A stretch of DNA of 64,000 nucleotides from positions 1 to 64,000 of the forward strand of contig JACKBR010000016.1 of assembly GCA_020634495.1 (NCBI GenBank). Reading direction: 5' to 3'. A program made the translations under genes and the position numbers. The stretch comes from Ardenticatenaceae bacterium (GTDB lineage: Bacteria > Chloroflexota > Anaerolineae > Promineifilales > Promineifilaceae). Positions 1-63,882 of this stretch are shown piece after piece. Under the pieces are notes generated by a model. The model saw only the letters and a program-made list of their open reading frames with translations. It did not search any database and was not told where the DNA came from. Each line of letters starts with the position of its first letter. Positions within the stretch are counted from its first letter, which is position 1.

Positions 1-496
1 GCCTGGCAGCAGACCGGATACGGCCGTAGGAATCAATTGAGGAAGTTTGCAGCAGAACGGCCGTTTCCACCAAATTAGGCGTAATCAAATCAGCCAGGGG
101 CAACAGATAAGCCAGATAAAGCTGCCGCACAACATCAGGGAACATCTGTTGGCCGCGATGGTTCACCAGCACCGGATCGATGACAACTTGAGATGGTTTG
201 AACTTTTGCAGCATTGCAGAGACGGCAATCAGTAGCTCTGCCCGCCCCAAAAAGCCCGTTTTTACGGCCGTTGCGCCATAATCACCCAACACAGCTTCCA
301 GCTGAGCCTGAACAAATTGAGGCGTCATCCAGGCCACATCTTTTACGGTGAGGCTGTTTTGGGCGGTAACGGCCGTTAGCACACTCATGCCATAGCCCCC
401 CAAGGCCGTCCACGTTTTCAGATCCGCCTGAATGCCCGCCGCGCCGCCGCTGTCTGAGCCGCCAATGGTAAGAAGTTTTACTGGTTCGTGTGTCAT
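1..496 (-). CDS. thiD: Hydroxymethylpyrimidine/phosphomethylpyrimidine kinase, 3' end outside window
   Basis: ThiD phosphorylates 4-amino-5-hydroxymethyl-2-methylpyrimidine and its monophosphate in cytoplasmic thiamine biosynthesis. The ATG is at 496 on the minus strand. Translation starts MTHEPVKLLTIGGSDSGG and continues AAGIQADLKTW, the glycine-rich N-terminus typical of ThiD. Further on come the substrate-domain stretch VVIDPVLVNH and the DLITPNLVE segment, both typical of this ribokinase-superfamily kinase. About 165 codons are present of the usual 260-270, and the ATP-binding C-terminal part lies beyond base 1. Three ACGGCCGT copies are in frame here (TAV twice, YGRI-type once). Family assignment is firm; whether the complete gene is a ThiD-ThiE fusion cannot be seen. 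Confidence 0.93.
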   Translation of the reverse strand, partial: MTHEPVKLLTIGGSDSGGAAGIQADLKTWTALGGYGMSVLTAVTAQNSLTVKDVAWMTPQFVQAQLEAVLGDYGATAVKTGFLGRAELLIAVSAMLQKFKPSQVVIDPVLVNHRGQQMFPDVVRQLYLAYLLPLADLITPNLVETAVLLQTSSIDSYGRIRSAAR

Positions 497-499
497 GGG

Positions 500-566
500 G
501 AGTGAGGAGTGAAACGTGAAACGTGATACCTGTTCCCCTCACGTTTCGCGCTTCACGTTTCATGTT
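500..566. repeat. Intergenic word-repeat hairpin (cgtgaaacgtga family)
   Basis: The gap between the thiD start and the next gene repeats gtgaaacgtgaaacgtga and then carries the inverted words cacgtttcgcgcttcacgttt, so the transcript could fold into a long hairpin. Similar words recur at 41565-41622 and 62025-62080. It may act as a terminator or as DNA structure; there is no long T-tract. Confidence 0.6.
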
Positions 567-935
567 TTATCCGGTAAAAATCACCTCAATTAGCGGGCTG
601 CCCACAACCAGTTCATCCAGCGAGTCAACTTGTTCGTGATACCAGGCCATCACCGGATCGCTCAGGATGGCGCGCCGCTCTGCGGGGTTGATGATGATGC
701 GGGCGTGGGCAGACAAATCAGCCTGCACCGACTGTTTTAGATGGAAGACAAAGTCTGGATTTTCTAGCAAGTTGGCGTACCAGTCCCGCGTGCCTGGGGT
801 GCCGGTGATGTAGATACGGCCGTTTACCTGCCTAAACCAAATCTCAATCCGCCGCAGGAGTCCACTTTTTCGCCCTCTGGTCGTTATGTCAATCAATTCG
901 TCTGTGGCCAATGCCTGCCGAATTTTTTCGTCCAT
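567..935 (-). CDS. Nitroreductase/deazaflavin-dependent oxidoreductase family protein (PF04075-like)
   Basis: A 122-residue split-barrel protein of the F420/FMN-type oxidoreductase family related to mycobacterial Ddn. Diagnostic features are the N-terminal TTRGRKSGLLRRIEIWF, which matches the family pattern T-xGRKSG-xR, and the core ITGTPGTRDWYANLLENPD, where the GxPxxxxWYxNLxxNP motif lies at about residues 45-62. Family members bind deazaflavin F420 or act on quinones and nitro compounds. A second paralogue lies at 62151-62666 and an F420:NADP oxidoreductase-like gene at 2925-3557. The substrate is unknown, and actual F420 use is inferred from the family. Confidence 0.8.
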   Translation of the reverse strand: MDEKIRQALATDELIDITTRGRKSGLLRRIEIWFRQVNGRIYITGTPGTRDWYANLLENPDFVFHLKQSVQADLSAHARIIINPAERRAILSDPVMAWYHEQVDSLDELVVGSPLIEVIFTG

Positions 936-943
936 GAAAATAT

Positions 944-1177
944 ACCCCGTTAAAAATCTGCGCTAATCTGCGTCCCATTTTCAGTAAGCATTTTAGCATA
1001 TCCGTTGCCGATTCAGTCAAGAAGCGATAGGATTCAGGTTCATTTTTCAACAGCACGCGGTCATTTTTGGAAACGGCCGTTGGGGCCACCCCCACTTTAA
1101 TTAGCCACAGAGAACTCAGAGAAAATATCTCTAAAATCTCTATGCCCTCTGTGGCCAAAAATTTACAGGATAAACCA
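944..1177. repeat. Leader region with gcagat- and cacagag-type word repeats
   Basis: The gap upstream of the ABC-F gene contains aaaatctgcgctaatctgcgt (about 953-973). A second segment is bounded by inverted words ttagccacagag (about 1098-1109) and ccctctgtggccaaa (about 1145-1159), which can pair into a long hairpin ending just before the start codon at 1178. The same words recur in other intergenic gaps. One ACGGCCGT copy is at about 1073. Confidence 0.55.
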
Positions 1178-2815
<1,638 letters not shown>

Positions 2816-2817
2816 GG

Positions 2818-2915
2818 ATATATCCGCAGATTACGCAGATCACACAGATTTTTTCTTTTTCTCTGCGTAACTTTGTGCCTTCTCTGGGCAGCTCTGTGTT
2901 CCGCTTTTCAAAAGG
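2818..2915. repeat. Intergenic word repeats (gcagatta and ctctgcg types)
   Basis: The sequence after the ABC-F stop carries atccgcagattacgcagat and then words of the type ctctgcgtaactttgtgcc and tctctgggcagctctgtgt. These resemble the gaps at 944-1160, 49707-49764 and 63360-63432. No strong terminator stem is evident. Confidence 0.5.
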
Positions 2916-2924
2916 AGTTTTGAT

Positions 2925-4283: not shown

Positions 4284-4300
4284 ATCCACACAAGCAAGAA

Positions 4301-30819: not shown

Positions 30820-31174
30820 ATCTCACCGCCGGGGTTTGGTTAGATTGTTTTTGAATCGGTGAGCTAAGTATAAAGGAAATACGGCCGTTCTGCATCTCTG
30901 TTCCCCATCCCCACACGGTTTTTCAGTAGTCCAACTCTTAAATAAAATAGGACGCTGATGAACGCAGATAAACGCTGATCTTTATAAAATCTGCGTCATC
31001 AACGTTTATCTGCGTCCCATTAGTTGTGGCGCGGCATCATTTGGGCGAGGCGGTACGAGAAATGGCGGCGCGTTAGCCCAGCGTTAGATCGCACCGCCTC
31101 GCCCCCACCGATTACCAATTACCGATTACCAATTACCGATTACGGTTTACCGTTTACCGTTTACGGTTCACGGG
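30820..31174. other. Repeat-rich intergenic region
   Basis: No gene is visible in this 355-bp gap between two minus-strand genes. It holds an ACGGCCGT copy (30879) and a gcagat-type hairpin (gatgaacgcagataaacgct at about 30957 against inverted atcaacgtttatctgcgtcc at about 31000-31019). A perfect 12-bp inverted repeat follows, gggcgaggcggt (31043-31054) with accgcctcgccc (31093-31104). A run of alternating accgattacc/aattacc and gtttaccgtttaccg words (31107-31165) ends next to the glycosyltransferase stop. These structures could terminate transcripts. Confidence 0.7.
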
Positions 31175-32170: not shown

Positions 32171-32479
32171 CGTCTCACTTCTCATACGGCCGTTGCCCAA
32201 CCTTTGGAAAAACCTCCATTTAGCTGCCAGGGTGCAACGGTTGCACTTTTTTGGGGTTATTGTAAAAGCGGACACCCATCTTACTTGTCCATTGGCGTAA
32301 AAGCCAAAAGGTAGTTTGCCTAAAAATAGACCCAAAGATGGCTTTTACACAAGCAAACCACTCGGAAATCGTGCATCGTTTTTCAAATTAGTTTCTGTGG
32401 TTTGCTACGATGCAATCTCGCTCAGGCGCTCTTGCATTCGGGCGGGATTATAGCATATCGTCACGAAGGATTCGCGTTA
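32171..32479. other. Divergent intergenic region between two glycosyltransferase genes
   Basis: Contains one ACGGCCGT copy (32187) and, at 32232-32252, a terminator-like hairpin on the plus strand: gtgcaa, loop cgg, ttgcac, then six T. No plus-strand gene precedes that hairpin, so it may end a short RNA or be incidental. No clear promoter hexamers were seen. Confidence 0.45.
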
Positions 32480-37802: not shown

Positions 37803-37930
37803 CCTCACAGTCAGTGTTCAGTAGGTCAGTGTTCAGTAGGTCAGTATTCAGTGATCAACTGACCTACTGATTACCGATTACTGATTACCGATTACCGATT
37901 ACTGTTTCACTGATTACCGATTCACTGATT
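37803..37930. repeat. Intergenic tcagtgttcagtagg / gattaccgatt word repeats
   Basis: Tandem words gtcagtgttcagtagg (at least three) are followed by gattaccgattactgattacc runs and by inverted actgacctactga. It can form hairpins, and its vocabulary matches 31107-31165 and 33440-33540. Confidence 0.7.
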
Positions 37931-40145: not shown

Positions 40146-40184
40146 AAAAGAAACGGCCGTCTCCCACAGACGGCCGTTTCTTTT
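40146..40184. terminator. Bidirectional terminator built from two ACGGCCGT copies
   Basis: A perfect 17-bp stem: aaaagaaacggccgtct (40146-40162) with agacggccgtttctttt (40168-40184) around cccac. A- and T-runs at the ends allow termination in both directions, serving the converging lipoprotein and isocitrate lyase genes. This is the second terminator in the window with the motif in each arm. Confidence 0.92.
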
Positions 40185-40213: not shown

Positions 40214-41518
40214 TTAAGCATGAGCCGGTTCAGGCGCATCCTCAAATTGAGCCTCTTCGGTTGAGCCTTTCAAAGCGGCCGTGGATGATTCACCACCGGA
40301 AACCGTCAATTGAATTTCATCGAAGTAGCCAGCCCCAACAAAGCTCTGGTGCTTCACAGCCCGGTAGCCATCGCTGGCTTCCAGATCAAATTCCCGTTCT
40401 TGCAGGCGTGAGTAGCCAGCCATACCTTCATTTTTGTAAGCCAGGGCCAGCTCAAACATGCTGGTGTTCAGCGCATGGAAACCCGCCAGCGTAACAAATT
40501 GGAACTTGTACCCCATTTTGCCTAATTCAACCTGGAACTTGGCAATGGTGTCTTCATCCAGATTGCGCCGCCAGTTGAACGACGGCGAACAGTTGTAAGC
40601 CAACATCTTACCAGGGAATTTTTCATGAATGGCATCAGCAAATTCTTTGGCCTCATCCAGGTCTGGTGTAGACGTTTCGCACCAAATGACATCCGCGTAT
40701 GGCGCATAAGACAGGCCACGGGCAATGGCGCTTTCCAGGCCGCCCTTCACGTTGTAAAACCCTTCACTTGTCCGCTCGCCAGTGATAAATGGCTGGTCAC
40801 GCGGGTCGATGTCGCTGGTGATAAGCTGAGCCGAGTCAGCGTCTGTCCGGGCGATGATGATGGTTGGCACACCCATCACATCGGCTGCCAATCGTGCCGA
40901 AATCAATTTTTGAATAAACTCACGGGTGGGCACCAGCACCTTGCCACCCATGTGGCCGCACTTTTTGGCGGAGGAAAGCTGGTCTTCAAAATGAACCCCG
41001 GCCACACCTGCTTCAATCATCATTTTCATGAGTTCAAAAGCGTTGAGTGAGCCGCCAAAGCCCGACTCTGCGTCGGCGACGATGGGGGCAAACCAGTAAA
41101 CGCCATTTTGGTTGTTCATGTGGTAAATCTGGTCGGCGCGCATCAGGGCATTGTTAATGCGCTGGGCCAGTTTGGGAGCGCTGTCGGCTGGATAAAGGCT
41201 TTGGTCTGGGTAGGTGTGCCCGGCGTTGTTGGCGTCGGCGGCCACCTGCCAACCGCTCAGATAGATGGCTTTTAATCCTGCCTGAACCATTTGCACGGCC
41301 TGGTTGCCGGTTAGTGCGCCCAGGGCATTGACATAATTTTCGCTGTGCATCAAGCGCCACAATCGTTCAGCGCCCATGCGGGCCAGAGTGTACTCAATCT
41401 GGACGGTTCCACGCAGGCGGCTAACATCTTCGGCGGTGTACGGCCGTTCAATCCCTTGCCACCGTTTATCAAATTTCCAACTATTTTCTATCTGCGTCAC
41501 ATCATACTGTTTCAACAT
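40214..41518 (-). CDS. aceA: Isocitrate lyase
   Basis: A 434-residue glyoxylate-shunt enzyme splitting isocitrate to glyoxylate and succinate. ATG 41518 follows ggagga. Motifs are [20 protein letters not shown], the metal-site [14 protein letters not shown], the catalytic signature [16 protein letters not shown] (Cys nucleophile in KKCGH), [10 protein letters not shown] and [11 protein letters not shown]. Length is typical. Malate synthase lies 94 bp upstream on the same strand, so the two form a glyoxylate-shunt operon divergent from a ScfR/RamB-like regulator. Confidence 0.97.
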
Positions 41519-41564
41519 GCTCACTCCTCCAAAAAGGGAATAAAATAGAGTTCTTTCGAATTTT

Positions 41565-41612
41565 TCATGAAGCGCGAACCGTGATGCGGTTCATCACGGT
41601 TTACGCTTCACG
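41565..41612. repeat. Hairpin between malate synthase and isocitrate lyase genes
   Basis: The words tgaagcgcgaaccgtgatg, cggttcatcacggtt and acgcttcacg contain overlapping inverted repeats (aaccgtgatg with catcacggtt, and gaagcg with cgcttc). They can fold on the aceB-aceA transcript and resemble the cgtgaaacgtga family. Confidence 0.65.
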
Positions 41613-43196
41613 CTAACTTAAATATTCGTAGGCTGGCAGCGTCAAAAACTCTGTAAATGTTTTGCCAATGATAATTTCTTCAAAAAGCTTGCCCGCAGCG
41701 CGGTATTTGCCTTGTTCAAACTGTTCTGCCCCGACCTGGCCCTTAATTTGTTGCAGCACAGCGGGAACCATTTCTGTAATAAGGTCTGGGGTAATGGAAC
41801 GGCCGTCTGCCAGTTTGGTGCCGGGGTTATGCAGCCATTGCCACACCTGCGCCCGTGAAATTTCGGCCGTCGCCGCGTCCTCCATCAAATTGTAGATGGG
41901 CACACAGCCACTGCCGTCCAGCCAGGAAGCCATGTATTGAATGCCCACATCGATGTTGGTGCGCAGACCGGCTTCGGTAATATTGCCCTCAGGCACGGCC
42001 AACAAATCTTCGGCCGTAATTTGCACATCCTCGCGCAGCCGGTCGATCTGGTTGGGGCCTTTCATCACCTTGTCAAATTCCTCTTTGGCAATGGCCACCA
42101 GTGCAGGATGCGCCACCCAGGTGCCATCATGGCCATCTTGCGCTTCTCGCTCTTTGTCGGCACGCACTTTGGCCAGGGCGGCATCATTGGCCGCCACATC
42201 ATTTTTGATGGGAATTTGGGCCGCCATGCCGCCCATGGCATGAATGCCGCGCTTGTGGCAGGTTTGAATGAGCAGCAGCGAATAAGAGCGCATCATGCGG
42301 GTGGTCATGGTCACTTCTGCCCGGTCTGGCATCACAAAATTGGGGTGATTGCGGAATTTGCGGATGGCGCTGAAGATGTAATCCCAACGGCCGCAGTTAA
42401 GCCCAGCCGAATGGTGGCGCAGCTCGTACAAAATTTCGTGCATTTCAAAGGCCGCCAAAATATTTTCAATCAGCACGGTGGCGCGAATGGTGCCCTGGGG
42501 CACGCCCAGCAAATCCTGAGCCAGCACAAAGACATCGTTCCACAAGCGGGCTTCTAAATGGCTTTCTAATTTGGGTAGATAAAAGTAGGGGCCGCTTCCC
42601 TTAGCAACCAATTTTTTGGCGTTATGGAAAAAGAAGAGACCAAAATCGAAAAGGGAGGCAGAAATGGCACGGCCGTTTAACAACACATGCTTCTCATCCA
42701 AATGCCAGCCACGCGGCCGCACCAACAGCGTGGCAATGTTGTCATTCAGCTTGTAAAACTTACCGTCTGGATTGGTAAAGGTAATGGTGCCATCGATGGC
42801 ATCGCAGAGGTTAATCTGGCCCAGAATGGTGTCTTGCCAGGTGGGCGAGTGCGAATCCTCAAAGTCGGCCATGTACATGTTGGCCCCAGAATTCAGAGCG
42901 TTGATCACCATTTTGCGGTCAACAGGCCCGGTAATTTCTACCCGTCTATCCATAAGGTCAGCCGGAATGGGGCCAACTTTCCAATCGCTGCTGCGAATTT
43001 CGGCCGTTTCCGGCAAGAAGTTTGGCATTTCCCCGGCATCCAGCCTTGCCTGCCGCGCAACCCGCATTTGCAACAATTCATGACGGCGCGCCGCAAACTT
43101 TTCCTCAAGCGAGGCAACAAAAGCCAGGGCATCTGGTGTCAGGATACGTTCAAATTCAGGGGAAGCTTGGCCGATAAGCTGAAGGTTGCGGGTCAT
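41613..43196 (-). CDS. aceB: Malate synthase A
   Basis: A 527-residue glyoxylate-shunt enzyme condensing glyoxylate with acetyl-CoA. ATG 43196 follows aaggag. Supporting motifs are [21 protein letters not shown], the metal-binding [12 protein letters not shown], the malate-synthase A signature [20 protein letters not shown], and the [17 protein letters not shown] and [13 protein letters not shown] segments near the active site. Length is standard for isoform A. It is the first gene of an aceBA operon. Its promoter region carries a perfect palindrome, TAGCGAATATTCGCTA, which also occurs in near-identical form near the divergent regulator gene. Confidence 0.97.
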
Positions 43197-43248
43197 TTGT
43201 GGGCTCCTTGCTACTTTTAAGTTCACAATTCACAAAAAAACTCTCCAA

Positions 43249-43264
43249 TAGCGAATATTCGCTA
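43249..43264. promoter_or_regulatory. Palindromic operator candidate, aceB side
   Basis: TAGCGAATATTCGCTA is a perfect 16-bp palindrome 53 bp upstream of the malate synthase start. A second copy differing at one base lies at 43331-43346. The placement between glyoxylate-shunt genes and an HTH regulator supports an operator role. Confidence 0.75.
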
Positions 43265-43330
43265 ATTGTGAAGAAAAGTATAAACGAAAGACGCACTGTG
43301 TCAAGGGGAAATCGGCGATTTTGTGATTGA

Positions 43331-43346
43331 TAGCGAAAATTCGCTA
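43331..43346. promoter_or_regulatory. Palindromic operator candidate, regulator side
   Basis: TAGCGAAAATTCGCTA repeats the 43249 palindrome with one changed central base. The site centres are 82 bp apart, near eight helical turns, which would suit cooperative binding. The regulator start is 70 bp downstream. Confidence 0.75.
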
Positions 43347-43415
43347 AAAGATGTATCATTGGTTTGTGTAGGAGTTTCCTGCGTCTTCAATAGATCAAAT
43401 AAAGGTGAGCCTTCT

Positions 43416-44924
43416 ATGACCAATAACCTTATCAATATTATTTTTGGCATGAAAGTGCGCCAGGCCCGCATGGAAACTGGCCTGACCCTTTCTGAATTTG
43501 CCAACCAGTGTGAGCTGTCACCTTCTTACGTAACGGAAATTGAAAAAGGTCGTAAATATCCTCGCGTAGATAAAATTATGCGCATGGCCGAGGTGCTGCG
43601 TAAGCCCTACGATGATCTTGTCTCCATCACGCTCTCCCCTTCAATGGCTTATCTCAGCACGACCCTAAAGTCGGCAACCTTTCAACGATTTCCATTTGAC
43701 GAGTTTGGCCTGGAATTGGGTGATTTGGTGACGCTGCTGACGCGGGAACCAGAAAAGGCAAGTGCTTTATTACACGCCATGCTAGAAATCGGCCGTCGTT
43801 ACGGCTTGCACGAGGAAGATTTTTTGCGTGCTGCGCTGCGCTCCTACCAGGAAATCCACGAAAACTACTTCCAAGAGTTAGAAGATGCAGCCCAGAAGTT
43901 TGTAGATAAATACGGCGAAAAGTATGGGTTTTCATCAGACCCGCCAGCCAGCCTTCAGGCGCTTAAAGCCATTTTGCAAGATGAGTGTGGCTATGAAATT
44001 GATTTGGAATCGATTCACAAACAACCCGCCCTGACAAAATATCGGGCCGTCTTTTTTGAGGGCAAAAAACCTCGTTTGCTTATCAATAATGCCTTAAATG
44101 AACGGCAGCTAAAATTTATTCTGGCACGCGAGGTAGGATACCAATTCCTTAAGCTGAAGGAGCGCTCTTTTGCTTCTACGCCTGACCAGATCAACTCCTT
44201 TCAGCAAATTCTCAATGATTTTAAGGCCGCCTATTTTGGTGGGGCGCTGCTCATGCCGCGCACGCACATGCTGTCTGATTTGCAGCATTTTTTTGAGCAA
44301 ACGACCTGGACACCTCATTTAATGCTGGCGATGTTGGACAAGTATCAGGTAACGCCAGAGATGTTGTTTTACCGTTTTAGCGAACTAATTCCTCAATTTT
44401 TTGGGGTGCGGCTGCATTTTTTGCGCTTTCATCATCGGGAGAACAGCGGCACTTACCAATTGGTCAAGCAGCTAAATATGAACCAGCTCATTGTGCCCAG
44501 CGGGATTGGGCTGTTGGAGCATTATTGCCGGCGCTGGCTTTCTGTGCGGCTGCTGCGCGATATGGAGGATGCGGAACGGGTGCCAACCGTTTCTGACCAG
44601 CCTCTCGTTGGGGTGCAGATGTCTGAGTTTGTTGAGTCGCAGGATAAGTTTTTGTGCCTGGGCTTTTCGCGTGAGCTTAGCTTGTCGCCGGGGATGACCA
44701 GCAGCGTCATTGTGGGTTTTCGGGTAGAGCCAGATTTAAGGAATACGATTCGTTTTGCCCAGGACCCGGCAATTCCTCAAGTAATTATTAATGAGACGTG
44801 CGAACGATGTCCTTTAACGGCCGAACAGTGCCGGGAGCGGGCTGCGGAGCCATCTATTTTGCGGGAACAGCAAAAGGAACGAGAACGCAAGTTGGCCCTG
44901 ATGGAAATTCAAAATCAGGTCTAA
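43416..44924 (+). CDS. ScfR/RamB-like XRE-family regulator of acetate/glyoxylate metabolism
   Basis: A 502-residue regulator divergent from aceBA; ATG 43416 follows aaaggtg. An N-terminal Cro/C1-type helix-turn-helix lies at about residues 8-65 (GMKVRQARMETGLTLSEFANQ, SPSYVTEIEKGRKYPRVDKI). A central IrrE/ImmA-like domain follows (LLINNALNERQLKFILAREVG). The C-terminal domain ends with CERCPLTAEQCRER, the three-Cys pattern of the short-chain fatty-acid regulator (ScfR) group. In Corynebacterium, RamB of this architecture represses aceA and aceB. The HExxH zinc motif expected in IrrE domains is replaced by REVGY, so protease activity is unlikely. The gene lacks ACGGCCGT copies. Confidence 0.88.
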   Translation: MTNNLINIIFGMKVRQARMETGLTLSEFANQCELSPSYVTEIEKGRKYPRVDKIMRMAEVLRKPYDDLVSITLSPSMAYLSTTLKSATFQRFPFDEFGLELGDLVTLLTREPEKASALLHAMLEIGRRYGLHEEDFLRAALRSYQEIHENYFQELEDAAQKFVDKYGEKYGFSSDPPASLQALKAILQDECGYEIDLESIHKQPALTKYRAVFFEGKKPRLLINNALNERQLKFILAREVGYQFLKLKERSFASTPDQINSFQQILNDFKAAYFGGALLMPRTHMLSDLQHFFEQTTWTPHLMLAMLDKYQVTPEMLFYRFSELIPQFFGVRLHFLRFHHRENSGTYQLVKQLNMNQLIVPSGIGLLEHYCRRWLSVRLLRDMEDAERVPTVSDQPLVGVQMSEFVESQDKFLCLGFSRELSLSPGMTSSVIVGFRVEPDLRNTIRFAQDPAIPQVIINETCERCPLTAEQCRERAAEPSILREQQKERERKLALMEIQNQV

Positions 44925-47735: not shown

Positions 47736-48104
47736 CTAATTTTCCTCAATAAAAAAGAGTACGGCCGTATCATTTGTCTTAGAATCTATCCGAAAAAACC
47801 ACAGAGGAAAAAGAGAATTCAGAGGCTTTGAACCTAAACTCAAAAACCGCTGTGTACTCTGTGGCTAATAGTTGGATAGGTATTTTAACTGAACACGAAC
47901 TTATTTTTTCCCAATGTCGTAGCGCACTAACTTTTAGCACGTACATGGCTCATTTTCAGGTTAACATGGGTTCGTGATCGGATGTCATACTCTGGTTGTA
48001 TTGTGGGCAGAACAGCGGGTACAGGCAATCTGACTTTAGTCCCTTCGTATGAGAGAAGCGTTTAGGAAAACGGGTACATTTTTAGCTGAATGGCGGGGAA
48101 CCGT
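47736..48104. other. Intergenic region with cacagagg hairpin
   Basis: No gene is seen. It contains an ACGGCCGT copy (47760) and a long-distance inverted pair, accacagaggaaaaagag (about 47799) against tgtgtactctgtggcta (about 47850-47866), matching the cacagag words at 1098-1159. The rest shows no clear promoter hexamers or terminator. Confidence 0.5.
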
Positions 48105-49771: not shown

Positions 49772-51412
49772 CTACCCATACGAAAACCAGTCATCAATCT
49801 CCTCCCCTTTCGGCTGCGGAGCGCTGCTTTTGCGGCCTTTCATATCCTCGTAGAACGTTTCGTCGTAGCGGCGCGAGCGTACGGGGATGGGCATCTTCAC
49901 GCCCCAGCCGAGCAGCAGCACCTCTTCCTTCTCTTGCAGACGAGCCAACATGCCGCGCAGCTGATCGCGCCCGGCCAGGCCAGTGAGCACAGCGCGGATG
50001 TCATCTTCATCCCCCAGCCAGCCGGTGATGCGGGTGCCCAACTGGCTCATCACTTCATCGTCAATGCCGGACGGCCGTTGGTCCACCACCAGCAGCGTCA
50101 CAAAATATTTACGCAGCTCGCGGGCAATAATGCCAAACGCCGTCTGCCCAGAAAGCTGCGGATTGAGCAGCTTGTGCGCTTCTTCGATGGCGATCAGCAG
50201 CGGACGCGGCGCGGCGTCGCCATGCGTCTTGTGCCGCTCGGTCTTCTTCACCCAATGCTGGCGAATGCGCCGCGTGAGGATGTTGGACACCAGCAAATAA
50301 TCCAGGTCGTTGTCGTATTCGCCAAAACTGAGGATGACATGACGGCCGTTTTCCAACTTATCCACAATTTCCGTCACAAAATCCTGCGCTGGGCGTTCCA
50401 CCACGTATGGCTTGTCGTTAATCACCGCCAGCTTGCGGTGCAGCGCCTCCGCCGCCTTTTCATGCACATTGTTTTGCCGCGCCCAGGCCGCCACGGAATT
50501 ATCGGCGGGGAACGTTTTGCCGCTTTCGGGATCGGTTTCCACCGCGCCCGGCTCCAGCTTCATAAATTCGGCAAACCAGTCTGGGCCAAAAGCGCGGAAC
50601 AGCGCGTTCAGCGTCACGCCTGCCGTGTCGGTCAGGTTCAGCGCCTCCGACAGCAGCTCGATGTCGCTGGTCTGGAAATCTTTGAGGGCAATTTCCAGGG
50701 TGAAGTCTGGCGCTTTGCCGCGCACCATCGCCCCTTTGCCCAGCGCCGCCACCTGCACCTTGCTGCTGCCAAAAAGGCTGCGCAGGCCGCGCACCGTCAC
50801 CATGCGGTCGGTGTCCGTGTCGTCAAAGGCGTACTCGTTGTGCATGTCGAACACCAGCGCGGCGGCCACGTCTTCCAGCATCAGCCCGGCCAGCACCATG
50901 CGCGTCAGGAAGCTTTTCCCCGTGCCCGTCGCGCCAAAAATGCCGCTGCTGCGCTTGACAAATTTGTTCAGATCCAGCCGCACCGGATAATCTTGCTCGA
51001 TGGTGTGCCCCACCACAAACATGCCTTTACCGTCTTTGCCAAAAATTTCATCAACGTCGGCCTCATTGGCCTGGCGCACCTCGGCATGATGGGCGGGCAC
51101 CGTTTTCACCGGCTTCGGCCCCGGATTTTCTTGTCCATTTGCTACCCGGTCGTCCCAAGCCGCCCGCTCTGGCGAGCCAAATTCCGGCCCGGTGTCCATG
51201 AGCAGCGTGGGGTACATCATCAGAGTGGTGTACAGCGTTTTGCCCAGCAGGGCTTGCTGGATGGCGGGCTGGAGCCGGTCGCTTTTTTCGTCGGCAAAGC
51301 GGGGGTCGGTGCTGCCCAGTTGCAAGTCGGTGATGAGGCCGTAGTAGTGGAAACGGCCGTTTTCACACACCACAAAGCTCCCTTCCTGCACCCGGTCCGC
51401 TGGCACCGTCAA
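49772..51412 (-). CDS. herA: HerA-family ATPase/DNA translocase, 5' end frameshifted
   Basis: HerA forms a hexameric dsDNA translocase that works with the NurA nuclease in DNA end processing. The 546-residue frame starts at a TTG (LTVPADRVQEG). Motifs are Walker A GIFGATGTGKSFLTRMV, Walker B PLLIAIEEAHKLLNP, and the arginine-side VDQRPSGIDDEVMSQLGTRI. Translation of the preceding bases in this frame gives IGYIVGGGLKEGFRIR, the expected HAS-barrel opening. However, the only ATG (51473) is one base out of frame because of an A6 run at 51464-51469. The true gene therefore probably starts at 51473 with a one-base indel. nurA is at 53170-54384. Confidence 0.92.
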   Translation of the reverse strand: MTVPADRVQEGSFVVCENGRFHYYGLITDLQLGSTDPRFADEKSDRLQPAIQQALLGKTLYTTLMMYPTLLMDTGPEFGSPERAAWDDRVANGQENPGPKPVKTVPAHHAEVRQANEADVDEIFGKDGKGMFVVGHTIEQDYPVRLDLNKFVKRSSGIFGATGTGKSFLTRMVLAGLMLEDVAAALVFDMHNEYAFDDTDTDRMVTVRGLRSLFGSSKVQVAALGKGAMVRGKAPDFTLEIALKDFQTSDIELLSEALNLTDTAGVTLNALFRAFGPDWFAEFMKLEPGAVETDPESGKTFPADNSVAAWARQNNVHEKAAEALHRKLAVINDKPYVVERPAQDFVTEIVDKLENGRHVILSFGEYDNDLDYLLVSNILTRRIRQHWVKKTERHKTHGDAAPRPLLIAIEEAHKLLNPQLSGQTAFGIIARELRKYFVTLLVVDQRPSGIDDEVMSQLGTRITGWLGDEDDIRAVLTGLAGRDQLRGMLARLQEKEEVLLLGWGVKMPIPVRSRRYDETFYEDMKGRKSSAPQPKGEEIDDWFSYG

Positions 51413-53003: not shown

Positions 53004-53033
53004 AATTCACCATCTATTCTATGTCATGCTGTA

Positions 53034-53161
53034 TTGTCATGCTGAACGAAGTGAAGCATCCCTAAAACCGTACATTTTCAGAAGTCCTGGCAAATCGGTG
53101 AACTCATCTGGCCTGGTTTATAGGGATTTTTCACTGCGCTGCGCTCCGTTCAAAATGACAA
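53034..53161. mobile_element. MITE/REP-like element with imperfect terminal inverted repeats
   Basis: A 128-bp element is bounded by ttgtcatgctgaacgaagtg (53034) and the inverse of ttgtcattttgaacggagcg at its right end (53161). Both ends continue to an atccct word (catccctaa on the left; tagggat on the right). It fits the dispersed gtcatnctgaacgaagtgaa-type inverted-repeat elements found in many bacterial genomes. It carries no gene, and lies between the HAS-barrel and nurA genes. Confidence 0.75.
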
Positions 53162-54538: not shown

Positions 54539-57241
54539 ATGGCTAAGAAGAAAACCAGCACGCGCAAAAAAACAACTCGCCGCAAAACGGAAGCCAAGTC
54601 CCGCACCACACGCGGCGGCACGGGCAAACGCACGCCCCGGAAGAAAACCACGACCAGGCGCAAAACCAGCACGCGCCCAAAATCAAGTCAGCCGCTTAGC
54701 CTAAATGTTGCTCAAAAAGCGCTGATGGTCGGCTTCCTCATTATTTGCATTACCGTGATTTTGGTATTGAGCCTGCTTTCGCCTAACCAGGGGCAGCTCA
54801 CCACGGCATTGGCTGGACTGATGCACCGCACCTTTGGCTGGGGCAGCGTATTGCTGCCGTTAATCACTGGCGGCATTGGGTTTTACTTAGTCTTGTGGGG
54901 CATGGAACAACCGCCTGAACTGCCAGCCTACCGGCTTACAGGAGCGGGTCTGCTTTACCTGGCATTCATGGGTTTTGCCTCCGTCACGTTGCTCATGCTA
55001 GAGAATGAGTTTTTTGATCCGTGGGCCATTGCTCGTGCCGAAAAAGGGGGTGGCTATGTGGGAGGCTTGATCGCTTCGCTGCTGATGACGGCCGTTGGCA
55101 ATTTAGGCACCATTTTTATCCTGACTGTCGTTGCCATCGTGGGCACCATTTTACTCTCTGGCGTCACGCGGGAAGATATGGGGCGGTATTTGCAGGCGCT
55201 GTTTAGCAAACGGCCGTCTTTACCCGCACCCGCCAACCGGGCCAACCGCCAAATCCCCATCAACCCCAGCCGTGCCCCGCGCAAGCCCGCCACCGAATCG
55301 GTTCAACCACGTCTTATTCCCGACGCAGCCGAGGCCGAAGCAGCCCCGGCCAAACCAGAAGCCAGACCAGCGCCCAAACCCGTTCGTGCAGGCCGTGACT
55401 CACGCCGCAAACCTGCCCCAGAAACGGCCGATACGCCCACCATCGTTACGCCCGTGTTTTTAGGCACAAACGGCCGTTCCCAGCAGCACAACTGGAAGCT
55501 TCCCATCCTTAATGAAATTTTAGAACCCGGCACCGACCTGGACCCCAGCGGAGCCGTCATTCGGGAGCAAGTTGAAATCATCGAGCACACCCTGGAAAGC
55601 TTCGGCGCACCGGCCACCGTGGTCGAGATTAACCAGGGGCCAACCATCACCCAGTTTGGCGTCGAGCCCAGCTTCATCCAAATGCGCAACGGCAAACGAA
55701 CCAAGGTAAAAGTGGGCAAAATCGCTGGCCTGGCCGATGACCTGACGCTGGCGCTGCACGCCCAATCAATCCGCATCCAGGCCCCTGTGCCCGGCAAAGG
55801 CTATGTGGGCATCGAAGTGCCCAATCCGGCCAAGGCGCTTGTTTCTTTGCGCGATGTCATGGAAACCACCGCCTTCGGCAAACTGAAATCACCGCTGCGC
55901 ATTGGCCTGGGGCAAGATGTCGCCGGGCAGCCCATTGTGGCTGATCTGGCCGGAATGCCCCATCTGCTCATCGCCGGGGCCACCGGTTCTGGTAAATCGG
56001 TTTTGGTGAATGCGATTATTGCCAGCCTGCTGCTGCTGAACACGCCCGACCAGCTTAAACTGGTCATGGTCGATCCCAAGCGGGTGGAGCTAACGGGTTA
56101 CAATGGCATCCCGCACCTGGCTGCGCCCGTGGTGGTGGAGATGGACAAGGTGATTGGCGTGCTGCAATGGGCCATGCGCGAGATGGACAATCGGTACAAA
56201 ATGTTTGCCGAGGCCGGGGCACGCAACATCGTCGATTACAACAAAAAGACAAAGCGCAATAAATCCATCGATCCGCTGCCTTACATCGTGATCATTGTAG
56301 ACGAGCTGGCTGATTTGATGATGCTCTCGCCAGAGGAAACGGAACGGGGCATTACCCGGCTGGCCCAACTGGCCCGCGCCACGGGTATGCACATGGTGAT
56401 TGCCACGCAACGGCCGTCTGTCGATGTGGTCACCGGGCTCATCAAAGCCAACTTCCCGGCCCGTGTGGCCTTTGCCGTCGCCTCCAGCACCGACAGCCGC
56501 GTCATTTTGGATGCCACGGGTGCGGAACGGCTGCTGGGCCAGGGCGACATGCTTTACCAAAGCCCGGACGCCGCCGCCCCGGTGCGCTCGCAGGGCTGCT
56601 TTGTGAGCGATGGCGAACTGAACAAGCTCATTGGCTACTGGCAGGCGGCCCGCCGCTTTAACGTGGTCTCCGCTGCTGAGAGCGTGCAGGCCAAACCAGT
56701 GGAGATTCCCTCGCAGCCTGTTACGCCGCCCCCGGCTGCCAAACCTGAACCAAAGCCCACCCCACCTGCCAGCCAGACAACAGTTGAAGCCCCGGTGGTC
56801 AACATGGGCAAAACGGCCGTTAAGCCAGTTGAAGAAGACGCCCCCACCATCGTGAGCCGGAAAACGGCCGAATCTCCCCCTGCCCCCAAACCAGAACCCT
56901 CACAGCCCACACCACCGCCTGCGGCAAAACCAGAAACCAAGCAGCAGCCTTTGTGGGAAGCGCTGCAAGAAATGGAAAATGAGGAGCCACAGGTAGAAAT
57001 TGACGACGACCTGATGCCAGAAGCGATTGAAATGGTGCGTAAACTAAACAAAGCGTCCACCTCGCTGCTGCAACGCCGCTTCCGCATTGGCTACACCCGC
57101 GCCGCCCGCCTCATCGACGCGATGGAGGAGATGGGCATCATCGGCCCGCCCACCGGCACCAGCAAAGCCCGCGAAGTGCTGCCCGTTGCTGGCGAAGATT
57201 CAGTTGTCAACGAGGAAGACAAGGAATCCAATAGTGCCTGA
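54539..57241 (+). CDS. ftsK: DNA translocase FtsK
   Basis: A 900-residue septal DNA pump for chromosome dimer resolution. The very basic N-terminus (MAKKKTSTRKKTTRRKTEAK, continuing for about 55 residues) is followed by four membrane helices (about 60-215: ALMVGFLIICITVILVLSLL, WGSVLLPLITGGIGFYLVLW, AGLLYLAFMGFASVTLLML, TAVGNLGTIFILTVVAIVGT). After a linker comes the translocase, with VVEINQGPTITQFGVEPS (alpha domain), Walker A IAGATGSGKSVLVNAI, Walker B YIVIIVDELADLM and MHMVIATQRPSVDVVTGLIKANFPARVAF. A Pro-rich insert (about 720-840) precedes the gamma winged helix SLLQRRFRIGYTRAARLIDAM. A Pro-rich spacer between motor and gamma domain is unusually placed and long. Confidence 0.96.
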   Translation: MAKKKTSTRKKTTRRKTEAKSRTTRGGTGKRTPRKKTTTRRKTSTRPKSSQPLSLNVAQKALMVGFLIICITVILVLSLLSPNQGQLTTALAGLMHRTFGWGSVLLPLITGGIGFYLVLWGMEQPPELPAYRLTGAGLLYLAFMGFASVTLLMLENEFFDPWAIARAEKGGGYVGGLIASLLMTAVGNLGTIFILTVVAIVGTILLSGVTREDMGRYLQALFSKRPSLPAPANRANRQIPINPSRAPRKPATESVQPRLIPDAAEAEAAPAKPEARPAPKPVRAGRDSRRKPAPETADTPTIVTPVFLGTNGRSQQHNWKLPILNEILEPGTDLDPSGAVIREQVEIIEHTLESFGAPATVVEINQGPTITQFGVEPSFIQMRNGKRTKVKVGKIAGLADDLTLALHAQSIRIQAPVPGKGYVGIEVPNPAKALVSLRDVMETTAFGKLKSPLRIGLGQDVAGQPIVADLAGMPHLLIAGATGSGKSVLVNAIIASLLLLNTPDQLKLVMVDPKRVELTGYNGIPHLAAPVVVEMDKVIGVLQWAMREMDNRYKMFAEAGARNIVDYNKKTKRNKSIDPLPYIVIIVDELADLMMLSPEETERGITRLAQLARATGMHMVIATQRPSVDVVTGLIKANFPARVAFAVASSTDSRVILDATGAERLLGQGDMLYQSPDAAAPVRSQGCFVSDGELNKLIGYWQAARRFNVVSAAESVQAKPVEIPSQPVTPPPAAKPEPKPTPPASQTTVEAPVVNMGKTAVKPVEEDAPTIVSRKTAESPPAPKPEPSQPTPPPAAKPETKQQPLWEALQEMENEEPQVEIDDDLMPEAIEMVRKLNKASTSLLQRRFRIGYTRAARLIDAMEEMGIIGPPTGTSKAREVLPVAGEDSVVNEEDKESNSA

Positions 57242-58805: not shown

Positions 58806-58807
58806 AA

Positions 58808-60497: not shown

Positions 60498-60594
60498 AAC
60501 AAACATAAATATTTTTGAACGTTTCCCGGTTTAATCTGCCTCGAACCAAACAAACTAGTTGCCTTCTCTCCGCTGCTGTATTAGTATTCAGTTT

Positions 60595-61317: not shown

Positions 61318-61343
61318 TCCGGCAGCCTCAGCCAGGCCATCAC

Positions 61344-61997
61344 CTAAAACCAACTGTCTAAATTGGCCAGCACCTCATCAAGCGCGTTGTAACGATAATG
61401 CACGTGGCTGAAATCGGCCGTTTTTGTTTGCCGGTTGGGGATGGCAATCACGGTCATGCCCGCCGTGACCGCTGCTCGGCTGCCGGGGCCAGAATCCTCC
61501 AGCGCCAGGCAATCCTGCGGAGCAATGCCCAGCCGTTCGGCCGCCAGCAGATAAATTTCTGGATTTGGCTTGCCTTGTTTTACTTCATCACCGGCGGTAA
61601 TGGCCTGGCAGCGGTCTTGCAGGCCAAGCTGGTGCAATATTTCTACTGCGTGCGCCCTGGGGCTAGAGGTGGCCACGCCCCAAGGAATGTTGCGGCGGGC
61701 AATTTCGGCGTGCAGCGGCTGTAGGCCCGGCATCGTGGGCACGCCGTTGGCCCGAATCTGGCTGTAAATGGCAGCCCGCTTACTGATGATGGTGGGAACA
61801 GGTTCCGGCAAATTAAACAGCTCTTTAATGTATGGGGTACTGATGTCGGCGCGCAGCCCGATGATATTTTCTACAATTTCTTCGCTGAGCTTGTGGCCAT
61901 ACGGCCGTAAATATTCATCCCATGCCTGCTGCGACAAGGGTTCGCTGTCCACCATCAATCCATCCATATCAAAAACAATTGCTTTAAGTTGGCTCAT
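61344..61997 (-). CDS. HAD-superfamily hydrolase, beta-phosphoglucomutase-like
   Basis: A 217-residue HAD-IA phosphatase. ATG 61997 (MSQLKAIVFDMDGLMVDSEP) follows ggagatatttgg. Motif I FDMDGLMVDSEP (nucleophile Asp), motif II in VATSSPRAHAVEI, motif III Lys in EVKQGKPNPEIYLLA and motif IV ALEDSGPGSRAAVTAGM are all present, as in sugar phosphatases and beta-phosphoglucomutases. The cap is of the C1 helical type. The physiological substrate is unknown. Converges with the response regulator gene. Confidence 0.93.
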   Translation of the reverse strand: MSQLKAIVFDMDGLMVDSEPLSQQAWDEYLRPYGHKLSEEIVENIIGLRADISTPYIKELFNLPEPVPTIISKRAAIYSQIRANGVPTMPGLQPLHAEIARRNIPWGVATSSPRAHAVEILHQLGLQDRCQAITAGDEVKQGKPNPEIYLLAAERLGIAPQDCLALEDSGPGSRAAVTAGMTVIAIPNRQTKTADFSHVHYRYNALDEVLANLDSWF

Positions 61998-62024
61998 CCA
62001 AATATCTCCATGCGGCAAATTGAA

Positions 62025-62080
62025 AATGCGTGATGCGCGAAACGTGATTTGTCTTGGCTCACACATCATGTTTTATGAGT
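62025..62080. repeat. cgtgatgcgcgaaacgtgat word repeat
   Basis: Words gcgtgatgcgcgaaacgtga and then tcacacatcatg and tttatgagtcatg form an imperfect hairpin upstream of the HAD gene. It resembles 500-566 and 41565-41612. Confidence 0.45.
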
Positions 62081-62150
62081 CATGGGCCAAAAAAGGCGAA
62101 TTTTACCGTTTCTGTGTTTTTATGGCATCTTGCGTAAAATGGGCAGCATC

Positions 62151-62666
62151 ATGACCAATACCACTTCCAAAAATCTGCTGCAAAAAATCAACACCCGCAT
62201 CGCCATGTCGGCCGTTGGGGCCAGGCTGCTGGCCCGCACCATGCACCATTTGGATAGGGCGGTGCTGCGGCTGAGCAACGGCCGTTCAACAGCAGCCACC
62301 CTCCTTACCGGTTTGCAAATTCTTAACCTGACCACAACCGGAGCCAAAAGCGGCCAGCCGCGCACAATCCCGCTGGTGGCCATTCCTTACAGCCAGAACC
62401 GGCTTATTGTGATTGCCTCCAATTGGGGGCAGGCCAAACACCCCGCCTGGTATTACAATATTTTGGCCCATCCGCAGGTGCTTGTAACGCAAAACGGCCG
62501 TTCCCAAACTCACATTGCCCGCGAAACCAACGGCGCAGAACGAGAAGCCTGTTGGCAAGCCGCCCTGCAAACCTACCCCGGCTATGCTGCCTACAAACAG
62601 CGCACCAGCCGACAAATCCCCGTCATCGTTCTTACCCCTCAAACGGCCGTTGCCGATCACTCATAA
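62151..62666 (+). CDS. Nitroreductase/deazaflavin-dependent oxidoreductase family protein (PF04075)
   Basis: A 171-residue split-barrel protein paralogous to the one at 567-935. I choose ATG 62151 (MTNTTSKNLLQKINTRI). After an N-terminal helical part come LTTTGAKSGQPRTIPLVAIP (family TTxGRKSGxxRTxPL), the flavin/deazaflavin contact strand LIVIASNWGQAKHPAWYYNIL (family VAS..G...PxWYxNL) and PQVLVTQNGRSQTHIARE. This is a longer, more canonical Ddn-like form than the first paralogue. Probably uses F420 or a flavin; substrate unknown. ACGGCCGT copies encode NGR twice and TAV at the end. Confidence 0.85.
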   Translation: MTNTTSKNLLQKINTRIAMSAVGARLLARTMHHLDRAVLRLSNGRSTAATLLTGLQILNLTTTGAKSGQPRTIPLVAIPYSQNRLIVIASNWGQAKHPAWYYNILAHPQVLVTQNGRSQTHIARETNGAEREACWQAALQTYPGYAAYKQRTSRQIPVIVLTPQTAVADHS

Positions 62667-62763
62667 AATCCCAATCCCATCTTCACATTTTCTAAACAGG
62701 TTCTTTCTAAGATTGGCCCGGCTTTGGCCAAACGACTATTTTATGAAGAGCGAGGTAAAAAAA

Positions 62764-63351
62764 ATGAGCGGAAAAATGAAAAAGATGGGTCTGCTGGCCC
62801 TGATGCTGTTATTGTTATTTGGTCTGGTGGCCTGCGGTGGATCTGCCCCGGTGGCTGAAACGACAACGGAAACGGCCGTTGTCACATCACCCACCGAAGC
62901 TGCCAGCACACCAGAAACGGCCGTTGAAGAAGCAGCCCCCGAAGAAACGGCCGCTGTGGCAATTGTTGCCGTAGAAAATGAAAAGCTCAACCTGAATGAA
63001 GCGTCCGGCGACGACTTCCTGAACGCTATCCCCAACTTTAGCAGCCGCATGGTTCGTGAATTCCAGGAATACCGACCTTACATCAGCATTCAGCAGTTCC
63101 GCCGAGAGATTGGCAAATATGTCAGCGATGAGCAGGTGGCTGAATATGAGCAATATGTTTATGTGCCGGTGGATGTGGATGAATCGGATGCGGCAACGTT
63201 GATGCAGCTGCCGGGTGTCGATGAGGCCATTGCAGAGATGTTGATCGGGGAACGGCCGTTTGGTTCCAACGACGCCTTCCTGACAGCCCTGGCAACCCAC
63301 GTCTCGGCCGACGACGTTAGCCTCGCAGTGGGCTATCTGGCCGCAGATTAA
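62764..63351 (+). CDS. HhH-motif (ComEA/PsbU-like) lipoprotein
   Basis: ATG 62764 is placed 8 bp after gagg; ATG 62743 is an alternative. The 195-residue lipoprotein has a signal ending in LVACGG. A linker follows with repeated T-E-T-A-V words from ACGGCCGT copies at 62871 and 62917. The domain starts EKLNLNEASGDDFLNAIPNF, the N-x-N-x-A-x-x-x-x-L opening of ComEA-type helix-hairpin-helix, with a second unit DAATLMQLPGVDEAIAEMLI. Such domains bind DNA in competence proteins or act structurally (PsbU). Secreted and lipid-anchored, it could bind DNA at the cell surface. Confidence 0.75.
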   Translation: MSGKMKKMGLLALMLLLLFGLVACGGSAPVAETTTETAVVTSPTEAASTPETAVEEAAPEETAAVAIVAVENEKLNLNEASGDDFLNAIPNFSSRMVREFQEYRPYISIQQFRREIGKYVSDEQVAEYEQYVYVPVDVDESDAATLMQLPGVDEAIAEMLIGERPFGSNDAFLTALATHVSADDVSLAVGYLAAD

Positions 63352-63359
63352 CCCGCAAT

Positions 63360-63432
63360 TGCGAAAAAATCAGCAAAGATTACGCAGATTTAATAGATTT
63401 TATCTGCAAAATCTGTGTAATCTGCGGATTAT
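63360..63432. repeat. gattacgcagat word-repeat hairpin
   Basis: Words agcaaagattacgcagattt, taatagattttatctgcaaa and atctgtgtaatctgcggat pair around their inverted copies to form a hairpin. It closely matches 49707-49764 and lies between the HhH lipoprotein and the last gene. Confidence 0.65.
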
Positions 63433-63450
63433 TTTTGAGGAGATTGAGCC

Positions 63451-63882
63451 ATGAGTCCAGAATTGGTTAACCACCGGCTGCGCCGCTTTTTGTTTGTGCT
63501 GGCCGGGTTCATTTTTATCGGCAGCATTGTGGAGCTGGCGTTAGAGGGGCATACCCAAAGCCCGGTGCAATGGATTCCGTTTGTGTTGAGCGGTTTAGGG
63601 TTGGTGGGGGTAACGGCCGTTCTCATCACGCCCCAACGCAAAACTCTCATCAGCCTGCGTGCCGTCATAGGGTTGGTGGCCTTCGGCAGCTTCTTTGGCA
63701 TTTTTGAACACATCGAACACAACATTGCCTTCGCCCTGGAAATTCGCCCCAACGCCGTATTGAGCGATGTCTTTTTTGAAGCGTTAAGCGGAGCAAATCC
63801 CCTGCTGGCTCCCGGCATTCTGGCGCTTGGTGCCCTGTTAGCCCTGGCCGCCACCTATTACCATCCTTCCCTAAATTCGTAA
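63451..63882 (+). CDS. Small integral membrane protein, unknown
   Basis: A 143-residue protein with four predicted helices (FLFVLAGFIFIGSIVELAL, WIPFVLSGLGLVGVTAVLI, AVIGLVAFGSFFGIFEHIEH, LLAPGILALGALLALAATYY). A strong gaggagattgagcc precedes ATG 63451. The third segment holds conserved-looking His and Glu residues (FEHIEHNIAFALEI), which could bind metal or participate in transport, but I do not recognise a family. It ends 118 bp before the window end, where nothing more is seen. Confidence 0.7.
   Translation: MSPELVNHRLRRFLFVLAGFIFIGSIVELALEGHTQSPVQWIPFVLSGLGLVGVTAVLITPQRKTLISLRAVIGLVAFGSFFGIFEHIEHNIAFALEIRPNAVLSDVFFEALSGANPLLAPGILALGALLALAATYYHPSLNS

Follow-up and report, generated by a model that had tools for sequence, protein, structure and literature searches.

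An iterated palindrome in an uncultured group of Chloroflexota, counterpart of cyanobacterial HIP1

The window considered here, the whole 64-kb stretch of DNA that was analysed, raises the question of why a single palindromic octamer, ACGGCCGT, should recur from one end to the other, and what kind of system could keep it there. A sequence-only reading had counted about 128 copies by eye where roughly one was expected, and the exact count agrees: 128 copies, or 2.0 per kb, against a mean of 1.07 in 100 dinucleotide shuffles (maximum 3). Under an order-3 model 4.4 copies are expected, and ACGGCCGT has the top z-score among all 8-mers in the window. The proposed Markov test gave the same answer on a larger scale, with 1375 copies against 20 expected (order-3, motif masked) in a 791-kb pool of sequence of the same type. 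The copies are distributed as follows:

20..63620, no strand: 128 exact ACGGCCGT copies, mean spacing 501 bp, the first at 20-27 and the last at 63613-63620

Even spacing was looked for and not seen; the spacing is close to random, and in the window approximately exponential (mean 501, sd 497). As had been claimed, the copies occur in genes and spacers and in all reading frames: by our own gene model the three phases hold 57, 35 and 26 copies, and 10 of the 128 lie outside predicted genes, which make up 88.8% of the window. The motif is somewhat denser in genes than outside them, at 1.81 against 1.37 per kb for the ACGGCCGT type, 1.66 against 0.63 in genome G007, which uses another version, and 4.03 against 2.39 where the bare hexamer CGGCCG is used. 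The extended form AACGGCCGTT, which had been said to dominate, is indeed the commonest 10-mer; since it accounts for 44 of the 128 copies, it leads rather than dominates.

The closest relatives of the window are Chloroflexota MAGs from several different isolates. In eight of ten relatives' genomes there are 6,147-12,866 copies of ACGGCCGT, so the idea that the motif is confined to this window, which would have been damaging to the sequence-only reading, fails. Genomes of the ACGGCCGT type make up 27 of the 52 in the family, with 0.99-2.1 copies per kb, and 8 of the 298 in a sample of the class.

The unit held in common is CGGCCG, and the letters outside it vary with the lineage. This core is shared by most versions of the palindrome, recurring in four of them, and it is enclosed, according to lineage, by A..T, G..C, T..A or by no preferred letters. 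Relatives with a replacement palindrome carry GCGGCCGC (G007), TCGGCCGA (G309 and G104) or TGCCGGCA (G316), and 14 of the 52 family genomes have no clear word, seven of these without k-mer analysis. Both the recognised unit and the strength of the motif pressure are now measured: the excess over the masked order-3 expectation is 68-fold for the ACGGCCGT type, 40-fold for GCGGCCGC and 17-fold for the bare hexamer. Flanking preferences are palindromic and version-dependent, graded in most ACGGCCGT samples, and fixed long flanks, such as occur in mobile repeats, were not found around the motif.

Individual copies stay at their positions both across genomes that share a version and in those of the hexamer type. 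The sequence-only reading had suggested looking for conservation at aligned sites, and at about 81% DNA identity window sites were retained in 143 of 171 cases, against 473 of 1893 for octamers of the same composition. In four near relatives, third codon positions are 91-99% identical within motifs and 61% identical elsewhere. The core was retained at 8 of 9 sites in hexamer-type genomes against 1 of 27 in genomes using another word, the numbers being small. In G007, G309, G104 and G316, 27 of 30 aligned site pairs were without gaps; genomes with another word have lost the old copies mostly through base changes. Individual sites are given below:

2113..2120, no strand: ACGGCCGT in an ABC-F ATPase gene, kept in 8 of 8 motif-type relatives at protein identities down to 71%, gone from G007, which is of the GCGGCCGC type
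40153..40160, no strand: ACGGCCGT outside the genes of our own model, kept in 4 of 4 relatives aligned there
40170..40177, no strand: a second ACGGCCGT outside the genes of our own model, kept in 4 of 4 relatives aligned there
41440..41447, no strand: ACGGCCGT in an isocitrate lyase gene, kept in 7 of 7 aligned relatives and in G008, lost in G007, G309 and G104
50071..50078, no strand: ACGGCCGT in a HerA-like gene; its core survives in G289 and G331, both of the hexamer type, but not in G007, G309, G104 or G316
50342..50349, no strand: ACGGCCGT in the HerA-like gene; its core survives as ACGGCCGT in G289 and as TCGGCCGT in G331, but not in G007, G309, G104 or G316
51353..51360, no strand: ACGGCCGT in the HerA-like gene, replaced by ACGGCCGC in G289, TCGGCCGC in G331 and GCGGCCGC in G007, with the same core and other outer letters in all three
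56410..56417, no strand: ACGGCCGT in an FtsK-like gene, kept in G006, G143, G161 and G289, absent in G309, G104 and G316

The DNA-level pressure overrides amino-acid choice. In sampled genes Thr-Ala-Val is 3.9-fold over-represented, and the motif encodes 96% of its occurrences. Every octamer version leaves characteristic tripeptides of its own, the most anomalous in the sampled proteins being Thr-Ala-Val, Ala-Ala-Ala or Ser-Ala-Glu. Such an imprint matters for inferring selection on proteins, for assigning phages to hosts and for the binning of metagenomes.

To our knowledge, the function of HIP1, the cyanobacterial palindrome with which ACGGCCGT had been compared, is still unsettled. On anatomy the comparison is sound: ACGGCCGT is a palindrome and the most over-represented octamer of its window, it occurs about 1-2 times per kb, in genes and spacers, it deviates mainly at its first and last positions (not so in G007), and relatives lacking it use alternate palindromes with the same core. 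HIP1 (GCGATCGC) was described in 1995 (PMC3497702); its density is given as about 500-2500 per million bases, with alternate HIPs and deviations at the outer letters in cyanobacteria (PMC4390886). With the HIP1 features taken from that source (PMC4390886), the two share the palindromic octamer, a copy every 0.5-1 kb or so, outer letters that vary most, palindromic extensions and, in some relatives, replacement by a sister palindrome built on an unchanged core, namely TCGATCGA for HIP1, and GCGGCCGC and TCGGCCGA for ACGGCCGT. ACGGCCGT is not HIP1 itself: it has another core, CGGCCG, the nearest relatives of the window are Chloroflexota and not cyanobacteria, and it differs in having bare-hexamer lineages, a measured protein imprint, a presence in phage contigs and, in the two enzyme families searched, no orthologous methyltransferase that tracks it. 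Some HIP1-rich genomes lack a CGATCG enzyme (PMC4390886). The main text of PMC4390886 contains no word starting with "phage", nor the phrase "other bacteria", and an unpublished remark by one author holds that octamers reaching the frequency of HIP1 occur in very few bacterial genomes (PMC3497702). The literature searched, the coverage of which is incomplete for HIP1 among prokaryotes, yielded no description of such a palindrome from Chloroflexota.

ACGGCCGT is a new counterpart of HIP1 in an uncultured group of Chloroflexota. The iterated palindromes here form a set independent of the cyanobacterial one, in which several versions occur inside a single family, some relatives use the hexamer alone and phages bear the motif. 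Such a set provides comparative material beyond the reach of one fixed octamer; the recogniser should track the version.

Methyltransferases, considered as a simple cause, gained no clear support from the two families searched. No single orthologous methylase among PF00145 and PF01555 tracks the motif, and there are candidates in every genome searched. PF00145 is present in 11 of 16 genomes and absent from G002, G003, G004, G008 and G176, so that 5 of the 12 ACGGCCGT-type genomes in the set lack it, single absences being weak as the completeness of the MAGs is not given; candidate enzymes matching PF01555 occur in all 16. When ORFs of at least 200 aa from 80 loci (L101-L180), a subset of all matches, were clustered, the largest group was a 690-aa protein of the PF01555 type, present in 11 of 16 genomes and as a fragment in G002. 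It has matches in 42 of the 52 family genomes, weak in G316 and G143, and none in G326, G161, G289, G331-G333 and G212; this most shared methylase is missing, or at most weakly matched, in six hexamer genomes, G326 and G143, and occurs also in many motif-poor genomes. In the class sample, where up to four candidates were scored in each genome, it is found in 57 of 298 genomes at E <= 1e-30, and 7 of the 31 genomes with strong matches (E < 1e-170) carry at least 0.9 copies of ACGGCCGT per kb. Its relatives within the scored candidates number at least 1635, and it is distantly similar to DUF1156/HmaB proteins; it therefore seems to be a gene of wide distribution and not what causes the motif. 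A different enzyme in each genome may be responsible instead.

The phage contigs number 22. Some carry the motif at host-like density, and contigs with terminase, portal, protease or tape measure genes bear it. A phage-borne cognate methylase was also considered and discarded: no m5C-type match occurred in 25 viral pieces, and N4/N6-type matches were limited to L337 and L339.

We tentatively favour, at somewhat less than an even chance, a palindrome system of the HIP class belonging to this Chloroflexota family, most likely in the form of HIP-style, modification-directed repair. A cellular protein would recognise CGGCCG on every replicating DNA, with A..T outside the hexamer and a weak further continuation in the lineage of the window, and, assuming equilibrium, would bias allele survival by some 4 natural-log units. 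The old strand would carry a chemical mark at the palindrome, such that near-sites turning into sites would be preserved and departures repaired back; sites would therefore ratchet up and stay, and altered outer contacts of the recogniser would yield a new version.

Several alternatives were weighed. A protein that organises the chromosome or recognises self DNA (Chi-, KOPS- or nucleoid-factor-like, or a mark-sparing defence) could have its sites kept and multiplied by selection on binding, not by biased repair, with phages copying the mark so as to be taken for self. We regard this as somewhat unlikely; graded palindromic flanks resembling a dimeric protein site, host-like density in phage contigs, in-place retention at a cost to proteins and the lack of a tracking orthologous methylase all speak for it. 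Chi, which acts with RecBCD, is a directional octamer, strand-skewed relative to replication, and KOPS is also directional, whereas ACGGCCGT has no direction; moreover, its spacing is nearly random and its higher density in genes is not obviously predicted by a chromosome function. Chi shares with it the character of a genome-wide over-represented oligomer, of a class named as machine-recognised (PMC4390886). Another reading, which we consider unlikely, is a genome-wide self-mark not based on methylation, with a recogniser evolving dialects (A..T, G..C, T..A around CGGCCG); if true, all DNA that lasts in the cell, that of phages as well, would be forced to carry the word about once per 0.3-0.6 kb, with enough force to write its own tripeptides into proteins.

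The DNA uptake sequences known to us are non-palindromic and have an orientation, while ACGGCCGT is an exact palindrome with palindromic flanks. The earlier comparison with uptake sequences is not favoured by palindromy or by the motif-bearing phage contigs with structural genes, which uptake does not predict, and a Neisseriaceae-like system, in which cells take up motif-bearing DNA and transformation spreads and maintains the motif, is distinctly improbable, even though density and placement inside genes fit. Neisseriaceae sequences likewise show thousands of copies and lineage dialects around a constant core (PMC3630211). That a GGCC-cutting system purged GGCC except in protected CGGCCG is very improbable. 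In the G161 sample 208 of 251 GGCC lie within CGGCCG, that genome has an M.HaeIII-like enzyme, GGGCCC is rare in six of six samples and AGGCCT in most; however, the 17-fold and 68-fold excesses go beyond mere sparing, TGGCCA is also common in the window (64 against 35 expected), PF00145 has the gaps noted above, and the G161 enzyme does not explain the excess in other genomes. Ordinary composition, codon or protein constraint, a mobile repeat or an assembly artefact can be set aside almost entirely: beyond a moderate GC content nothing favours them, and they are refuted by the shuffle and masked-Markov controls, by three reading phases, spacers and tripeptides that follow the DNA version, by the missing long flanks and by MAGs of different isolates.

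As to the repair model, no single orthologous methylase of the two families searched tracks the motif, near-miss depletion is modest to nil, and selection for bound sites would give the same counts and retention; for HIP1, maintenance by selection is the finding of a later paper as cited in PMC6604393. Near-miss depletion was dropped as proof of biased repair. Inner near-misses of ACGGCCGT stand at 0.64 of expected, a modest depletion, with 4 of 63 control palindromes as low; those of GCGGCCGC in G007 are unexceptional at 0.73 (3 of 15 controls equally low), and those of the bare hexamer, at 1.00, show no depletion. By position, the inner neighbours of ACGGCCGT range from 0.48 to 0.90 of expected and the position-1 neighbours reach 2.40, G007 being the exception with position-1 neighbours of GCGGCCGC at 0.48.

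The window contains 128 copies of the octamer palindrome ACGGCCGT, in which the core CGGCCG is preceded by A and followed by T (the A..T version). They lie between positions 20 and 63620, and this exact count agrees with the approximately 128 copies reported in the sequence-only reading. Dinucleotide shuffles gave a mean expectation of 1.07, and the octamer has the highest z-score among all 8-mers of the window (128 against 4.4 for an order-3 model). Of 178 CGGCCG cores, 128 carry A before and T after, while the next most frequent contexts, ACGGCCGA and ACGGCCGC with 18 copies each, have A on one side; the full AACGGCCGTT accounts for 44 of the 128. Distances between copies (mean 501 bases, standard deviation 497) are those given by random placement. 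All three reading phases contain copies (57, 35 and 26), and a further 10 lie outside genes, according to our gene model of long ORFs, which covers 88.8% of the window.

Confinement of the motif to the window, which that reading had named as grounds for rejection, was not found, since ACGGCCGT is abundant in relatives: eight of ten genomes carry 6,147 to 12,866 copies (with 83 in G007 and 9 in G010), and 27 of 52 family genomes, on our thresholds, are of A..T type. The genomes compared are mostly MAGs of unstated completeness. At least 0.9 copies per kb occurred in 8 of 298 genomes sampled from the class, and 56 loci mostly from other phyla (L025-L080, 957 kb) yielded 5 copies. For the ABC-F protein encoded in the window at 1175-2812, the closest relatives were Chloroflexota MAGs.

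Relatives of the ABC-F protein
Anaerolineaceae NAT123, 95%
SJ142, 94%, match cut by contig end
KLAP72, 92%
Ardenticatenaceae CFX1, 82%

Other family members iterate different versions of the palindrome. Genome G007 carries 12,040 copies of GCGGCCGC (the G..C version) in place of ACGGCCGT; in DNA samples, TCGGCCGA (T..A) is iterated in G309 (59 in 45 kb) and G104 (61 in 40 kb), TGCCGGCA in G316 (12 in 10 kb, and 3,665 genome-wide in the control column of the family count), and the bare hexamer CGGCCG in G161, G331, G332, G289 and G212. Whole-genome hexamer counts agree with these samples, with 21,019 CGGCCG in G161 (4.1 Mb) against 132 for the hexamer read backwards, and G333 resembles G331 and G332. 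Besides the 27 A..T genomes, the family includes one G..C and six hexamer genomes, and the remaining 18 comprise the two T..A genomes, G316, G311 with a weaker A..T signal, and 14 without a clear word; k-mer analysis covered seven of these 14, in samples of 7.6-45 kb, and showed a weak CGGCCG excess in G077, G328 and G329.

Palindromic continuations differ between the octamer versions. T follows ACGGCCGT in 53-72% of cases in the window, G009, G001, G321, G008 and G143, with C preferred some bases further, and there is no such T preference in G003 and G262; G is preferred after GCGGCCGC and A after TCGGCCGA. The hexamer genomes show nearly no flank continuation, with a mild A..T preference around CGGCCG in G289. 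In a tree of three proteins from 16 genomes, with several partial rows and a root placed by our choice on the hexamer genomes, G007 fell beside G327 and G143, both of A..T type (support 0.97), and the T..A pair formed a group of its own (1.00), with lower support elsewhere.

With the motif masked in order-3 models, the enrichment was 68-fold for pooled A..T DNA (791 kb; 1375 seen, 20 expected), 40-fold for G007 (216 and 5.4) and 17-fold for hexamer DNA (570 and 33), which, if at equilibrium, would correspond to scaled pressures of about 4.2, 3.7 and 2.8 natural-log units, respectively.

The imprint extends to proteins, where in-frame reading of the DNA word predicts the anomaly for every octamer version. 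Among 482 long ORFs from A..T DNA there are 631 Thr-Ala-Val tripeptides against 161 predicted from neighbours, 96% of the 631 being explained by 606 phase-0 motif copies, and 177 Asn-Gly-Arg against 51; the two are also the two most anomalous tripeptides of the window alone (47 against 10.4 and 21 against 3.9). Correspondingly, G007 shows Ala-Ala-Ala (141 against 66) and Arg-Gly-Arg (34 against 10), and the T..A genomes Ser-Ala-Glu (42 against 9.3). No Thr-Ala-Val excess was seen in the hexamer pool (22 against 24.5), motif-poor genomes (8 against 10.6) or the outgroup (9 against 14).

Individual sites persist in place. Gap-free alignments, with one or more of seven relatives, were obtained for 78 of the 128 window sites, gapped octamers being left out. 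The whole octamer was kept in G009 (42/50), G001 (44/56), G321 (31/36) and G002 (26/29), at 80-81% DNA identity, and in G003 (10/14), G308 (8/13) and G327 (5/5), at 74%, whereas control octamers of equal composition were retained at 22-30% and 11-15%, respectively. Pooling the four nearer relatives gave 143/171 against 473/1893 for controls, where each site is counted once per relative and the observations are hence non-independent. Third codon positions were 91-99% identical inside motifs against 61% elsewhere in these four, and 71-100% against 51-53% in the other three. More remote ACGGCCGT genomes kept 9/11 (G008), 5/5 (G143) and 3/5 (G006), and the copy at 2113 is present in all eight motif-type relatives read.

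Where another word rules, the fate of the sites differs. Hexamer genomes kept the core of window sites in 4/4 (G289), 3/4 (G331) and 1/1 (G161) cases, against 10/106 hexamers of the same composition (P = 6e-7), whereas it was kept in 1/7 in G007, 0/6 in G309, 0/8 in G104 and 0/6 in G316 (P = 3e-6 against the hexamer genomes), the sole survivor being site 51353, which reads GCGGCCGC in G007. Retention in these four genomes was not significantly lower than in their own controls (49/250; P = 0.06). Since the core is kept in hexamer genomes and lost in other-word genomes, sites are held by the version in force and not as mutational cold spots, although the alignments behind persistence and loss are small, as are the numbers.

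Viral DNA carries the motif too. Scanning IMG/VR for two close AACGGCCGTT yielded 25 stretches from 22 contigs, 16 of the 25 with at least 0.8 ACGGCCGT per kb (maximum 3.7) and nine with 0.18-0.66, barely above the two copies used as bait. Genes for terminase, portal, head protease or tape measure are present on four pieces (L348, L355, L338 and L354), which hold 27, 31, 22 and 11 copies against 0.21-0.64 expected, and five motif-rich pieces pooled show the same tripeptides as A..T DNA. As the contigs were picked by motif, they demonstrate the existence of such phages and not their frequency. The densest piece, L332 (3.7 per kb), encodes FtsK/SpoIIIE, transglycosylase and MoxR-type proteins, and rather than a phage it may represent a plasmid or a conjugative element. 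A scan of 30 proteins, which make up a small share of the viral contigs, gave no match to any integrase family.

We consider it very probable that this is a phenomenon of the HIP class, named after the highly iterated palindrome HIP1 of cyanobacteria, whatever its agent. Four of the five class features tested were found, and the fifth, a cognate methyltransferase, stands here at candidate level. It is like HIP1 in its working and constitutes a distinct variant, since sequence and host differ. A putative recogniser would read CGGCCG plus outer letters particular to the lineage, and would bias fixation toward the motif on chromosomes and, seemingly, on phages. In Elhai's model of HIP1, which includes alternate HIPs, methylation-directed mismatch repair ratchets up the sites (PMC4390886), and repair of this kind would yield the pattern found here. 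Modification-directed repair is the explanation that we tentatively favour, although a search of two methylase families did not identify its enzyme. A bound site under selection, or used in self-recognition, would fit the observations too, and we regard it as possible but rather unlikely, while DNA uptake as the agent appears improbable.

A DNA-methylase-like protein of 690 aa, encoded at L161:1270-3339 (G008) and neighbours, is common across the family; it bears a distant likeness to DUF1156/HmaB defence methylases and, in several relatives, lies near homologs of the window's 49-54 kb region (a HerA-like gene and neighbours). G161 encodes a full-length M.HaeIII-like m5C methylase (L102:1429-2715; 420 bits to 1dct), and 208 of the 251 GGCC in its sample fall inside CGGCCG.

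Several other palindromic hexamers are nearly absent from the window, namely GGGCCC (0, 36 expected), GGCGCC (1, 41 expected), GCCGGC (2, 41 expected) and CTGCAG (2, 23 expected), with GGGCCC scarce in G007 and G008 as well. The window contains a glyoxylate bypass cluster at 40214-44924, where isocitrate lyase adjoins malate synthase A, together with a helix-turn-helix regulator of weak RamB likeness, far under the RamB family cut-off. Repeats of about 100 bases, mostly outside gene models, resemble small dispersed MITE- or REP-type repeats and recur on several contigs of relatives, including G001, G002, G003 and G321.

Repeats of about 100 bases in the window
30914-31025
32297-32406
37810-37930
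47778-47885, good RNA fold (z -3.95)

A word of 30-40 bases at 53025-53064, with 95-100% matches at several places in G008 and one in G006, is apparently a short dispersed repeat. In the G143 samples L239-L240, GAAGATAC and TCTTCTCA are in strong excess, with 24 each in 40 kb, perhaps reflecting a tandem array.
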